The translations under genes and the position numbers were made by a program. Under the pieces are notes generated by a model that worked only from the letters and a program-made list of their open reading frames with translations, did no database searches and was not told where the DNA came from. Source: Pleurocapsales cyanobacterium LEGE 06147 (GTDB lineage Bacteria; Cyanobacteriota; Cyanobacteriia; Cyanobacteriales; Xenococcaceae). Taken from it: DNA of 64,000 bases. How positions within the stretch are numbered: the stretch's first letter is position 1; the number at the start of each line of letters is the position of its first letter. This document shows, piece by piece, positions 47,653 through 51,523 of the stretch. Where the stretch lies: contig JADEWQ010000004.1 in the NCBI GenBank assembly GCA_015207585.1, forward strand, positions 1 through 64,000, given 5' to 3'.

Positions 47653-49308
47653 GTGCAAACATGGTTACTGCCAACACTGAGTGATGTTTTCCTTCGTCGA
47701 CAGGCGACGAAGGAAAATAATAGTGTGAAGAAAAATCACTCTACAGTAACCGAAAATCAGCTAGAGCAAAATTATAGTGAGAGAAAACGCTTAGAAGAAT
47801 TAAAAGCACAAAGAGAATGGTTTGGTGCGATCGCTGCCTTGGAAAAAATACTTGTAGCTAAAATCGATCTCAATCAATCTCGACTAAATAATTATCAAGG
47901 ACTGATTTTTGCAGCTCCAGCACCAATCTTAAGTAATGTAGAGCTGATAACTCGCTTTAAAACAGGCATTTTTACCCCCGATGCTTTTAATGCTAGAGCC
48001 TTAATGCCTTCTCAAATGCCAGACGATGACCATTCATCCCCAGAAGCAATTATCTCTCCCATTACCGAATTACCATTATTACCAAAAGATCCCATCGCGA
48101 GCGAACAATTTTGCCTCCTCTTGACTGCTCATTTTGCTTTGGTCATGGTGTTGGGAGAAGATGCCGAAGGCATTCCTACTTTTCATTTTTCTTTTGAACC
48201 AGAGTTAATCGAAGAAGTTTGGGCAATTTTGCGCTCCCGCTTGTTATTAACTAACTATCATCAATTAGAGCAGTTAGATCGTTTAATCGAGCAATTTGCT
48301 CCTCCTACTCCCGATTATCGTCTGGTGAGCGAGTTTACTCGTCAGTTACTCAAGCATTTACCGGATTTAACGGCTTTAGCTATCAGCAAGACTCGTCCGG
48401 CAGAAAAGATTTCAATACCTCGAATCATAGATGGAGCCTCAAAATTTAGCCAGACAACCACTAGTGAAGTCCACTCAGACGTTCGAGGAACTGCCGTACA
48501 GGTGCTGTCGGTGGTTGATGAAAGCGAACGCGGCTTTGGTGTTTTTCGCCGGAATGCCTTAGATTCGCAGCAATTTTCTCTGACTAATCCGACAGTGAGT
48601 AGCAAGCTAGAAATGGAATTACTACAAGCACTCACTCATGAAATTCGTACCCCACTAACTACCATTCGTACTCTGACGAGACTTTTGCTCAAACGCAAAG
48701 AAGAATTTAAGCCTAATGTAATTAGACGCTTACAGGCGATTGACCAAGAATGCAGCGAGCAGATCGATCGCATGGAGTTAATTTTTCGTGCGGCTGAATT
48801 AGAATCGACTTCTCCTACTGCCAAATCAGTTCAACTGATTCCTTTCCCTCTCGAAGAAATATTCGAGCAAAGCATTCCTCGCTGGCAAAAACAAGCAGAA
48901 AGACGTAACGTAGACCTCGATGTCATTTTACCCAAACAATTGCCGAAAGTAGTCAGTGACCCGACCATGCTAGACCGAGCTTTAACGGGTTTGATGGAAA
49001 GTTGTACCCGTAGCTTAACCAATGGCGGACATATCCGCGTCAAGGTATCGACTGCTGGCAATCAACTCAAATTACAAGTGCTATCGCAATACACCGCTTC
49101 AACCAATCCCCTTAAGTCCCTCGGTCAATTACTTATGTTTCAGCCGGAAACAGGCTGTTTGAGCTTGAATCTGAACGTAACTAAAAATATCTTTCAGGCT
49201 TTGGGTGGCAAACTAACGATCAGACAACGACCCCACCAAGGAGAAGAATTAACGATTTTTCTGCCTATTAAAACTTCTAGATTAAAAATTCAAAACGGAA
49301 AAGGTTAA
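47653..49308 (+). CDS. Histidine-kinase-like protein with intact H-box and degenerate ATPase
   Basis: A 551-residue protein. The middle part (about 150-235: EQFCLLLTAHFALVMVLGED, FHFSFEPELIEEVWAIL) is an N-terminal sensory domain, possibly DICT-like, shared with the gene at 50123. The HisKA helix carries the phospho-acceptor in LTHEIRTPLTTI (H329). In the following HATPase region the N-box asparagines are missing (G446, S450 in TGLMESC), no DxGxG is found, and the G2 box is replaced by GCLSLNLN. It can probably receive phosphate but not bind ATP. GTG start with AGGAGG site upstream. The usual response regulator is not adjacent. Confidence 0.8.
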   Translation: MQTWLLPTLSDVFLRRQATKENNSVKKNHSTVTENQLEQNYSERKRLEELKAQREWFGAIAALEKILVAKIDLNQSRLNNYQGLIFAAPAPILSNVELITRFKTGIFTPDAFNARALMPSQMPDDDHSSPEAIISPITELPLLPKDPIASEQFCLLLTAHFALVMVLGEDAEGIPTFHFSFEPELIEEVWAILRSRLLLTNYHQLEQLDRLIEQFAPPTPDYRLVSEFTRQLLKHLPDLTALAISKTRPAEKISIPRIIDGASKFSQTTTSEVHSDVRGTAVQVLSVVDESERGFGVFRRNALDSQQFSLTNPTVSSKLEMELLQALTHEIRTPLTTIRTLTRLLLKRKEEFKPNVIRRLQAIDQECSEQIDRMELIFRAAELESTSPTAKSVQLIPFPLEEIFEQSIPRWQKQAERRNVDLDVILPKQLPKVVSDPTMLDRALTGLMESCTRSLTNGGHIRVKVSTAGNQLKLQVLSQYTASTNPLKSLGQLLMFQPETGCLSLNLNVTKNIFQALGGKLTIRQRPHQGEELTIFLPIKTSRLKIQNGKG

Positions 49309-49357
49309 TAAGCTGCCACGCATTTAGTTGAACTCTTATGGCTGATACACTAATGTA

Positions 49358-49948
49358 GTGCTGCATGAGAGTTTTCCTCTACAGGCGACTACTGCCGCTT
49401 CGCGGAAAGCAAAAGTAGGTTCTGCTGTTTATGGTGCCTTTAAAGGAATAGAACATGGAGATGCCACCGCTTTTGCAGCAATAGGATTGGGTGCTCTTGA
49501 GGGTGCGGGGGTTTCTGCAACTATCGGTGGAATTGGTTTGAGTTTTGGCGGTAGTGCATTTGGTATTGGCATGGGTTCGATGACTGCTATGGGTGGGATA
49601 TTTGGATTGGGTATTTATGGATTGGCAAAAATGTTTAGTTCTTCCAGTACCTCTGAACCTATTGCAGAAACTTTTAACCGCATGGAAGAAATAATTTCTG
49701 ATGAAGAAGCCTACTATCAAGCGATGATAGATTTAAACCCAATTTTTGCAGAACTATCCTGGGAACAAAAATTTGCTGAGTTGGAGCTTGAAGAAGAGTT
49801 AGAAATCCTAAAAAAACAAATAAAAGCAAAGCTAAGAAACAATTACATGAAAGCGAGAATATTTATAATAGTTCTTTTGATTTTATTTCTGAAGATCTTT
49901 TTGAGAATAGTTTTTATCGGTAAAAATAGTGAGATGAAGTTCGTTTAA
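49358..49948 (+). CDS. Glycine-zipper-like protein, possibly 5'-truncated
   Basis: A 196-residue frame from GTG 49358. Residues about 20-95 are rich in regularly spaced Gly and Ala (GIGLSFGGSAFGIGMGSM, GGIFGLGIYGLAK), a glycine-zipper-like membrane pattern. An acidic helical segment follows (EEELEILKKQIKAKL), and a last hydrophobic helix (FIIVLLILFLKIFLRIVFI) ends it. The first 15 residues look repeat-derived (CTACTGCCGCTTCGCGG), so an original start may have been lost. Function unknown. Confidence 0.45.
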   Translation: MLHESFPLQATTAASRKAKVGSAVYGAFKGIEHGDATAFAAIGLGALEGAGVSATIGGIGLSFGGSAFGIGMGSMTAMGGIFGLGIYGLAKMFSSSSTSEPIAETFNRMEEIISDEEAYYQAMIDLNPIFAELSWEQKFAELELEEELEILKKQIKAKLRNNYMKARIFIIVLLILFLKIFLRIVFIGKNSEMKFV

Positions 49949-50122
49949 GTAGTGGCGATCAAAAATCTCTGCGTCCCCGTATCAATCCCAACAAGCTTAA
50001 AATCAACGTGGCGGAGTAGTAGTCTTCGTTCAGGCGAACTTTTGCTCAAACAGAGACTCGCTCCAACTAAGCCTGGATTGCTGCTGATAAGCCGACTTGA
50101 GTAGGTGGAAATAGTTAGTTCC

Positions 50123-51523
50123 TTAGTTATCCTCAATCAACTCTAACGGTACGGTTGGCAACAATACTTTAAAACTCGAACCCTTATCCACTGAACTATT
50201 TACTGAGATCGAGCCGCCGCAGCGTTGCACCAATTGCTGAACTACAGTCAAACCCAAACCGGGACCCGGCACTCTTTGATGAAGTGCCCCCCTACCTCGA
50301 TAAAAACTCTCAAAGATTTTACTTAATTCTTTGGTAGCAATTCCTACTCCCGTATCGCTAACAGTGAGTTCTACATCTTCGTCTCGCAAGCAGGCTTGTA
50401 CGAAAACTCGACCCCGAGCTGGGGTAAATTGCAAGCTATTGTTAAGTAAATTAATAATAATGAGTCTTAACCACGGCGTAGGACAAGAGACAGGAGGTAA
50501 TTGGTGAGGAATCCTGTAACCTAACTTAATTTCTTTTTCTTGAGCAAAAGATTGATAGGTACTGACTATTCCTGGTACGAGTTCGTCGACGCGCACGCAA
50601 GTAGCTGCTTCTGTCTCTGTATAGTTATCTAATTGGAGTAATTCGAGTAAACCATTAATTAGAGAATTTTGGCGATCGCACTCGTGGTTGAGCATTTGCA
50701 GATAGCGTTGACGCTGTTCTCCTTTAATCTGTCTAGACTCTAGCAGACTGAGAGCTGTTTTCATATGAGTAAGCGGCGAACGTAACTCTCGCACCAAATT
50801 GCTGAGAAATTCTTTCTCCAATCCCATATATGGAGACAAACTGGTTTCATTGCCTCGTGATAGCAATCCTTGAGCCGATGTCGATAGAGAGTCGTCCCGT
50901 TCGAGTTGTTTGAGAAAGAGCTTGCTAATGACTTGAAAGCCGCCAGTGCAATTGGAGAGTAAAGCAATATCTTCATCCGTAATGATTTCTTCTGCTTGAG
51001 GAACGATCGCTGCCTTAATCTCTTGTAAAACTCGCGCGATCGTCTCTGGTTCAAAACTACACGTAAGCTTGAGGTGAGGTTGCTCGAATCTTTTTCCCCA
51101 AGGTTCGACCTGTATTTTGCCTTTTTGCCATTGAGCCAAAATTAAAACACAAAATTGTGCAGATACAATGACTAGAAAAGATTCCTGTTTGAGCAACCCA
51201 TTAGTTGCTAGTTTGAAGGGAATAATTGTTGTCTCAGAGCCTGTTTTTTCAGATAGATCCGGATGATGTTTAGTCAAGCTATACGAATAGATTCGCTCGA
51301 CTTTGCCTTGTTGTCGATATCTTTCAATATCACTGAGCCAACTTTGAGTCTGGGGAAGTTTAACCCAAACCTTGGACTCGAGCTGCTGTTCGATCGCGAG
51401 ATCGATGATAATGCCAATGTATGATTTGAGCGTACTAGGATTGATAACCACCGTTGGAAGAGATGGTTCAAGCTTCTGAGTAATTTGATACAGGGACAAT
51501 TCGGAGACAGAAGCAGAATTCAT
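50123..51523 (-). CDS. Histidine-kinase-like protein with intact ATPase but no phospho-acceptor His
   Basis: A 466-residue protein. An N-terminal sensory domain (about 1-165, with VVINPSTLKSYIGIIIDLAIEQ, and SFLVIVSAQFCVLILAQ) resembles that of the convergent gene at 47653 and is possibly DICT-like. The HisKA helix reads NLVRELRSPLTH, where Arg245 stands at the place of the phospho-acceptor His. The HATPase domain is complete: N-box IINLLNNSLQFTP, G1 DTGVGI, F-box IFESFYRG and G2 GPGLGLTVV. It can bind ATP but cannot autophosphorylate at the usual site. Confidence 0.82.
   Translation of the reverse strand: MNSASVSELSLYQITQKLEPSLPTVVINPSTLKSYIGIIIDLAIEQQLESKVWVKLPQTQSWLSDIERYRQQGKVERIYSYSLTKHHPDLSEKTGSETTIIPFKLATNGLLKQESFLVIVSAQFCVLILAQWQKGKIQVEPWGKRFEQPHLKLTCSFEPETIARVLQEIKAAIVPQAEEIITDEDIALLSNCTGGFQVISKLFLKQLERDDSLSTSAQGLLSRGNETSLSPYMGLEKEFLSNLVRELRSPLTHMKTALSLLESRQIKGEQRQRYLQMLNHECDRQNSLINGLLELLQLDNYTETEAATCVRVDELVPGIVSTYQSFAQEKEIKLGYRIPHQLPPVSCPTPWLRLIIINLLNNSLQFTPARGRVFVQACLRDEDVELTVSDTGVGIATKELSKIFESFYRGRGALHQRVPGPGLGLTVVQQLVQRCGGSISVNSSVDKGSSFKVLLPTVPLELIEDN

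Follow-up and report, generated by a model that had tools for sequence, protein, structure and literature searches.

The window analysed here is a 64,000-nucleotide (nt) stretch of Pleurocapsales cyanobacterium LEGE 06147 (GCA_015207585.1, JADEWQ010000004.1), and coordinates given without a prefix are positions in it. Two convergent genes separated by 814 bp encode histidine kinase-like proteins, named A and B in this study: A retains the phospho-acceptor His without the ATP-binding boxes, and B retains those boxes without the His (Table 1). A first-pass annotation made from the sequence alone had read the pair as a possible split histidine kinase; the coordinates, strands and motifs that it gave, together with the convergent arrangement at about 0.8 kb, were reproduced in our analysis. 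The GTG start of A is consistent with the orthologue alignment A2.

Table 1 Features of the A/B locus and of a related locus in another cyanobacterium (aa, amino acids; DHp, dimerisation and phospho-acceptor hairpin).
Feature	Position	Strand	Basis or remark
Protein A, 551 aa, GTG start	47653..49308	+	DICT-like N-terminal domain, HisKA (DHp) with His329, HATPase-like domain without ATP boxes
DICT-like domain of A, residues about 37-200	47761..48252	+	Profile homology to the C-terminal half of the DICT region of B; helix/strand order matches in model
DHp of A, residues 314-385	48592..48807	+	Pfam match and AlphaFold model
His329 codon of A, H-box acceptor (LTHEIRTP)	48637..48639	+	His in 168/168 orthologues, followed by ExxT with Thr in 168/168
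HATPase-fold domain of A	48838..49272	+	G1/G2 boxes gone, QPETGxLSLN instead; ATP-lid region forms short strands in model
Protein B, 466 aa	50123..51523	-	DICT, HisKA with Arg at the acceptor place, intact HATPase (Pfam and motifs)
HATPase_c domain of B	50153..50473	-	N, G1 and G2 boxes intact; 83.3 bits
Arg245 codon of B, phospho-acceptor place (NLVRELRSP)	50789..50791	-	Q46/R10/E1/H2 in 59 orthologues
DICT sensory domain of B (PF10069)	51131..51499	-	Pfam, 86.3 bits against a cut-off of 23.8
Glycine-rich open reading frame between A and B, 196 aa	49358..49948	+	No Pfam match; not shown to be part of the system
A, GAF-less Hik2-type kinase and Rre1-like regulator, apparent operon	L259:5476-8742 (G177:C1:1411476-1414742)	one strand	Deep-branching cyanobacterium

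Against the curated Pfam cut-offs of 26.9 bits for HisKA (PF00512), 26.4 for HATPase_c (PF02518) and 23.8 for DICT (PF10069), A is recognised as a HisKA protein (31.2 bits), falls below the threshold for HATPase_c (20.6 bits) and gives no match to the DICT family, to which it is linked only through its profile comparison with B. In the window copy the N-box positions are occupied by Gly446 and Ser450, and neither a DxGxG nor a GxGxG motif is present. Across 168 orthologue sequences the acceptor His, the Thr of the ExxT motif and the Pro of the H-box are invariant, while the DxGxG motif of the G1 box was found once and the GxG[LIVM]G motif of the G2 box never. The first N-box Asn is nearly always gone (6/168) and the second, though absent from the window copy, is retained in 86; the proposed loss of both N-box Asn and both G boxes describes the window copy, and holds across the family for the G boxes but only in part for the second Asn. 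The former G2 region carries a conserved motif of its own, QPETGxLSLN. In the AlphaFold model of A (mean predicted local distance difference test, pLDDT, 80.8) the HATPase fold is preserved with an altered lid region, and this domain gives VIA Z scores of about 15-17 in comparisons with many kinases, DivL and RetS among them; these two also rank with the best structural matches to the core of A. With the His and ExxT fixed and the ATP boxes gone, A can carry phosphate on its His but, judged by its residues, should not make its own phospho-His.

Protein B presents the opposite picture. Its HisKA domain scores 41.5 bits, and in 57 of its 59 orthologue sequences the acceptor residue is other than His (Gln in 46, Arg in 10, Glu in one). 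The first-pass annotation had pointed to Arg245, and when an alternative acceptor was sought, profile alignment placed Arg, Gln or Glu at the H-box in these same 57 sequences, with His only in L037 and L303. The ATP-binding motifs, claimed to be complete, are so with hardly an exception: the second N-box Asn is intact in 59/59, the Asp and Gly of G1 in 59/59 and the GxGLG of G2 in 58/59. The AlphaFold model of B has a mean pLDDT of 78.0. This retention, combined with the absence of the His, indicates that the ATP site is under selection although autophosphorylation at the usual place is impossible. Where L037 and L303 have the codon CAC, their relatives have Gln, encoded by CAG or CAA; these two B proteins are possible natural revertants to full kinases.

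The source genome (6.2 Mb in 244 contigs) contains 83 HATPase_c and 65 HisKA matches, fragments among them, and the H, N, G1 and G2 boxes were read in about 60 of its HisKA proteins. Only two lack the His, namely B and a protein at C3:22881-23063 whose ATPase has decayed too, which leaves B as the sole His-less HisKA protein with an intact ATPase. Two further proteins resemble A in bearing the His without recognisable G boxes (C203:4829-5026 and C53:9388-9609). Other DICT proteins widespread in cyanobacteria also occur in this genome, a His-bearing DICT-GAF-histidine kinase and a DICT-HD-like protein (C148:46900-49600 and C228:18900-20900). Chance or decay in a single genome is ruled out by conservation over the 168 A and 59 B orthologues, and the two patterns, His kept in A and ATP boxes kept in B, argue for selection rather than decay. 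The losses are complementary, ancient and under strong selection.

The related N-terminal domain that had been noticed in both proteins is borne out by profile comparison, in which the N-termini of A and B are homologous over about 105 columns (hhalign probability 95%, E 2e-8), and the order of helices and strands in this region is identical in the two AlphaFold models. A quick tree of the kinase core set A apart on a long branch; in an approximately unbiased test, a tree constrained to an A+B clade was not rejected and indeed scored better, and a more careful tree of 66 rows separated A, B and two other kinases from the remaining 40 with support of 98/89. These core trees lend weak support to the grouping of A with B. 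Mostly because of the N-terminal domain, A and B likely share one ancestor.

We searched for A in 89 Cyanobacteriia genomes and the rest of the phylum sample at E 1e-20, and tallied B in 78 genomes. A is present in 88 of the 89, including picocyanobacteria that encode about five kinases, and was not found at this threshold in the other genomes of the phylum sample; the lone Cyanobacteriia genome without it, G085, gave weak matches to other kinases only. B is present in 31 of 78 genomes, each of which also carries A. The two genes lie convergently within 3.3 kb in 11 of the 31 B-carrying genomes, and their convergent pairing recurs at 28 of 80 named A loci, where 5-400 bp usually separate them. 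It is seen in Pleurocapsa-like, Nostoc-like, Moorena, Microcoleus and Laspinema lineages, among others, and no gene adjoins A more often than B. In picocyanobacteria (L255-L258), A sits between psaD and rodA within the conserved gene order ppc-gshA-trpE-psaD-A-rodA-mrp-hemF; in three of the four loci A and rodA either overlap slightly or are separated by a small gap, and in two the overlap is a few bases long. The kinase adjoining A in Waterburya (L269), a membrane kinase with a close relative elsewhere in the source genome, was taken as incidental.

We propose that a single DICT-domain histidine kinase was the source of both proteins, A having retained the phospho-acceptor His and the DHp hairpin while losing ATP binding, and B having retained ATP binding while losing the His. 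A would be a core cyanobacterial ATP-less phospho-His protein that obtains its phosphate from some other kinase or regulator and forms part of a response-regulator pathway in almost every cyanobacterium. Where B is present, its ATPase domain would phosphorylate His329 of A in trans within a mixed dimer held together by the DHp bundles, and B would constitute an extra DICT-sensed input to A in the lineages that have it; A and B may thus act as one split sensor. Two considerations point to phosphorylation of A by B: the ATP site of B is kept in nearly all orthologues though its own DHp His place is unusable, and A is the closest related His-bearing protein without an ATP site. We assign a probability of about 0.42 to this interpretation.

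Several observations weigh against it, the strongest being that A does not need B. A is found without B in 47 of the 78 genomes, its His kept in all of them, so the co-occurrence expected of the pair is observed in one direction only. A DICT-domain search of 41 of these 47 genomes recovered no B-like DICT kinase. A diverged B hidden in the B-less genomes was considered and rejected: the B profile matched only the kinase core, and the DICT search returned other proteins, namely DICT-HD-like ones of 460-500 aa and DICT-GAF-kinases of 660-700 aa that have the His. In four picocyanobacteria no His-less partner for A was found, all other kinases detected there having the His. A occurs without B in the Epithemia turgida endosymbiont G147 and in G183, a relative of it, and together with B in G143, of the same genus. 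The persistence of A and of its His where B has been lost means that A must also function without B, and an obligate heterodimer, strictly understood, is untenable. The diatom endosymbiont genome G147 also contains a decayed DICT fragment with three stop codons (G147:C1:760941-761282); its kinase part was not found in that genome, and we do not claim it as a B pseudogene.

The gene neighbourhood adds further points on the same side. The A-B linkage is convergent and does not form an operon. At 23 of the 28 linked loci (L272-L344) B has murE upstream of it, and in most loci B follows murE on the same strand; B also remains beside murE in genomes where it is separated from A. The ancestral order is A-B-murE, so the proximity of A to B is, in part at least, a gene order passed down by descent, and since the tie of B to murE is no looser than its tie to A, the argument from neighbourhood loses weight. 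A mirror-tree comparison of the A, B and murE distance matrices gives equal correlations (partial correlations 0.52, 0.48 and 0.48) and is uninformative, showing no A-B co-evolution beyond shared descent. The long branch of A leaves its position in the tree unsure, and two Nostoc-type B orthologues (L037 and L303) do encode a His at the acceptor place. In L317 (Anabaenopsis) and G159, murE abuts A and B is missing, which suggests that B was lost and A kept. That rodA and murE, both cell-wall genes, lie near A or B may hint at function or be chance. For the pairing first proposed, the complementary losses, the related N-termini and the recurrent linkage count in support, and a strict one-to-one partnership is not supported.

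A different division of labour would place A, acting independently of B, among dimeric histidine phosphotransferases or phosphatases like Spo0B, ChpT and PhyT, and would make B a pseudo-histidine-kinase tuning A or another kinase through an ATP-driven shape change, like DivL or RetS. The near-universal occurrence of A, often without B, its ChpT-like combination of a DHp hairpin bearing the His with an HATPase fold devoid of the ATP lid, and the high rank of DivL and RetS among the structural matches of its core are all in keeping with this. However, the near-exceptionless retention of the ATP boxes of B would not be explained by this alone, DivL being functional without its ATPase domain (PMC9491836), and A has no match to PF10090, the family of the ChpT C-terminal domain. 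We consider this arrangement rather unlikely. Less plausible is that A and B are independently decayed kinases with unrelated jobs whose proximity merely reflects the inherited A-B-murE order; the B-murE linkage, as strong as that of A and B, and the uninformative mirror-tree would suit such a history, but unrelated decay would not keep the His in 168/168 A proteins or the ATP boxes in 58-59 of 59 B proteins, nor would it account for a rare N-terminal domain common to both, and we judge it quite improbable.

A lead towards a possible pathway comes from the deep-branching genome G177, in which A, a 277-aa kinase and a NarL/LuxR-type regulator follow one another on one strand, separated by 35 and 24 nt. 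The kinase is GAF-less with intact His and ATPase, and is the sole match in G177 to a Hik2-type query, which gave one match at cut-off in each of the nine genomes searched. In each of five other genomes tested, a single protein stands out clearly as the best match to the regulator, at 54-63% identity. Hik2 is described as a GAF-domain kinase found in all cyanobacteria and cognate to the NarL-type regulator Rre1 (PMC4751278, PMC2677595), and phosphotransfer from Hik2 to Rre1 has been published (PMC4751278). The kinase and regulator of G177 are probably Hik2 and Rre1, a naming based on cross-genome similarity and published descriptions rather than on a named reference sequence. The arrangement was seen in G177 only, and not near A in 20 other genomes or 80 named loci. 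The broadest form of our proposal, in which A belongs to the Hik2-Rre1 pathway of photosynthesis control and is trans-phosphorylated by B where B is present, so that a HisKA-type split kinase, created when the duplicates of a DICT kinase underwent complementary losses, would extend across much of the phylum, is in our estimation unlikely. That Hik2 is instead the main partner of A, both acting jointly on Rre1 with B as a late addition, draws on this operon, on the single Hik2-type match per genome and on the published phosphotransfer, and is highly doubtful in view of the restriction of the arrangement to one genome, the presence of a Hik2-type kinase without A in G085, the autophosphorylation of Hik2, which makes the His of A unnecessary, and the indirect naming of both partners.

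Should A be phosphorylated by other proteins, surveys of kinases based on the ATPase domain would miss a near-universal cyanobacterial signalling protein, including in picocyanobacteria with about five kinases. If B is what phosphorylates A, the pair would be a natural heteromeric kinase of the HisKA type whose two sensory inputs can be separated and which allows dimer exchange and cross-phosphorylation to be tested directly. It would also be a clear example of gene duplicates undergoing complementary losses.

Among known systems, the first-pass annotation had likened the pair to CheA3/CheA4 of Rhodobacter sphaeroides, a split kinase with the phospho-acceptor on one protein and the ATPase on the other (PMC3591291). 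The likeness holds as logic: by sequence, A is an acceptor protein without a working ATPase and B an ATPase protein without the His, and the acceptor protein may double as a phosphatase, A having an HExxT motif. It does not hold as architecture, since in CheA3/CheA4 whole domains are missing from CheA proteins, whereas A and B are HisKA-type paralogues of full length that have undergone point losses and kept their folds. The CheA domains P1 (the histidine phosphotransfer, HPt, domain), P3, P4 and P5 were not found in A or B, for which Pfam gives HisKA, DICT and HATPase only. Also unlike CheA3/CheA4, A is common without B, and the split-kinase activity of our pair is putative. A split kinase already described in cyanobacteria, Hik36-Hik43 (PilL-N/PilL-C) of Synechocystis, is encoded by unlinked genes (PMC7656254) and is of the CheA/HPt type, its domains unrelated to those of A and B.

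The acceptor half has closer relatives in anatomy. ChpT is an ATP-less DHp protein derived from a histidine kinase that moves phosphate between receiver domains (PMC3433190), and PhyT and Spo0B are likewise dimeric, having kept the DHp His, lost ATP binding and come to carry phosphate between receivers (PMC5898713). A has this anatomy in its model, a kinase-derived DHp hairpin with His joined to a degenerate HATPase fold whose ATP boxes are lost, the second N-box Asn of half the orthologues (86/168) apart; it differs in keeping a recognisable HisKA sequence and a DICT-like domain, and its phosphotransfer is putative. B resembles DivL and RetS as a kinase-like protein that would act on another kinase, and shares with DivL the loss of the acceptor His, but unlike DivL it retains all ATP boxes in nearly every orthologue. 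A also fits, by Pfam cut-off, the class of 711 among 42417 database proteins (1.7%) with a HisKA domain, an HE/DxxN/T motif and no recognisable HATPase that were listed as candidate split kinases and could be bifunctional; the accessible part of that report (PMC3591291) names no partner proteins for them, and A has a related candidate partner in B. In open-access text we found no paper on A or B, and none on a HisKA-type paralogue pair with complementary losses of which one member is near-universal in cyanobacteria; A may have been listed earlier under some locus tag. Split kinases as such are already known, and the new element here would be the complementary losses between two HisKA-type paralogues, of which A is near-universal in cyanobacteria.

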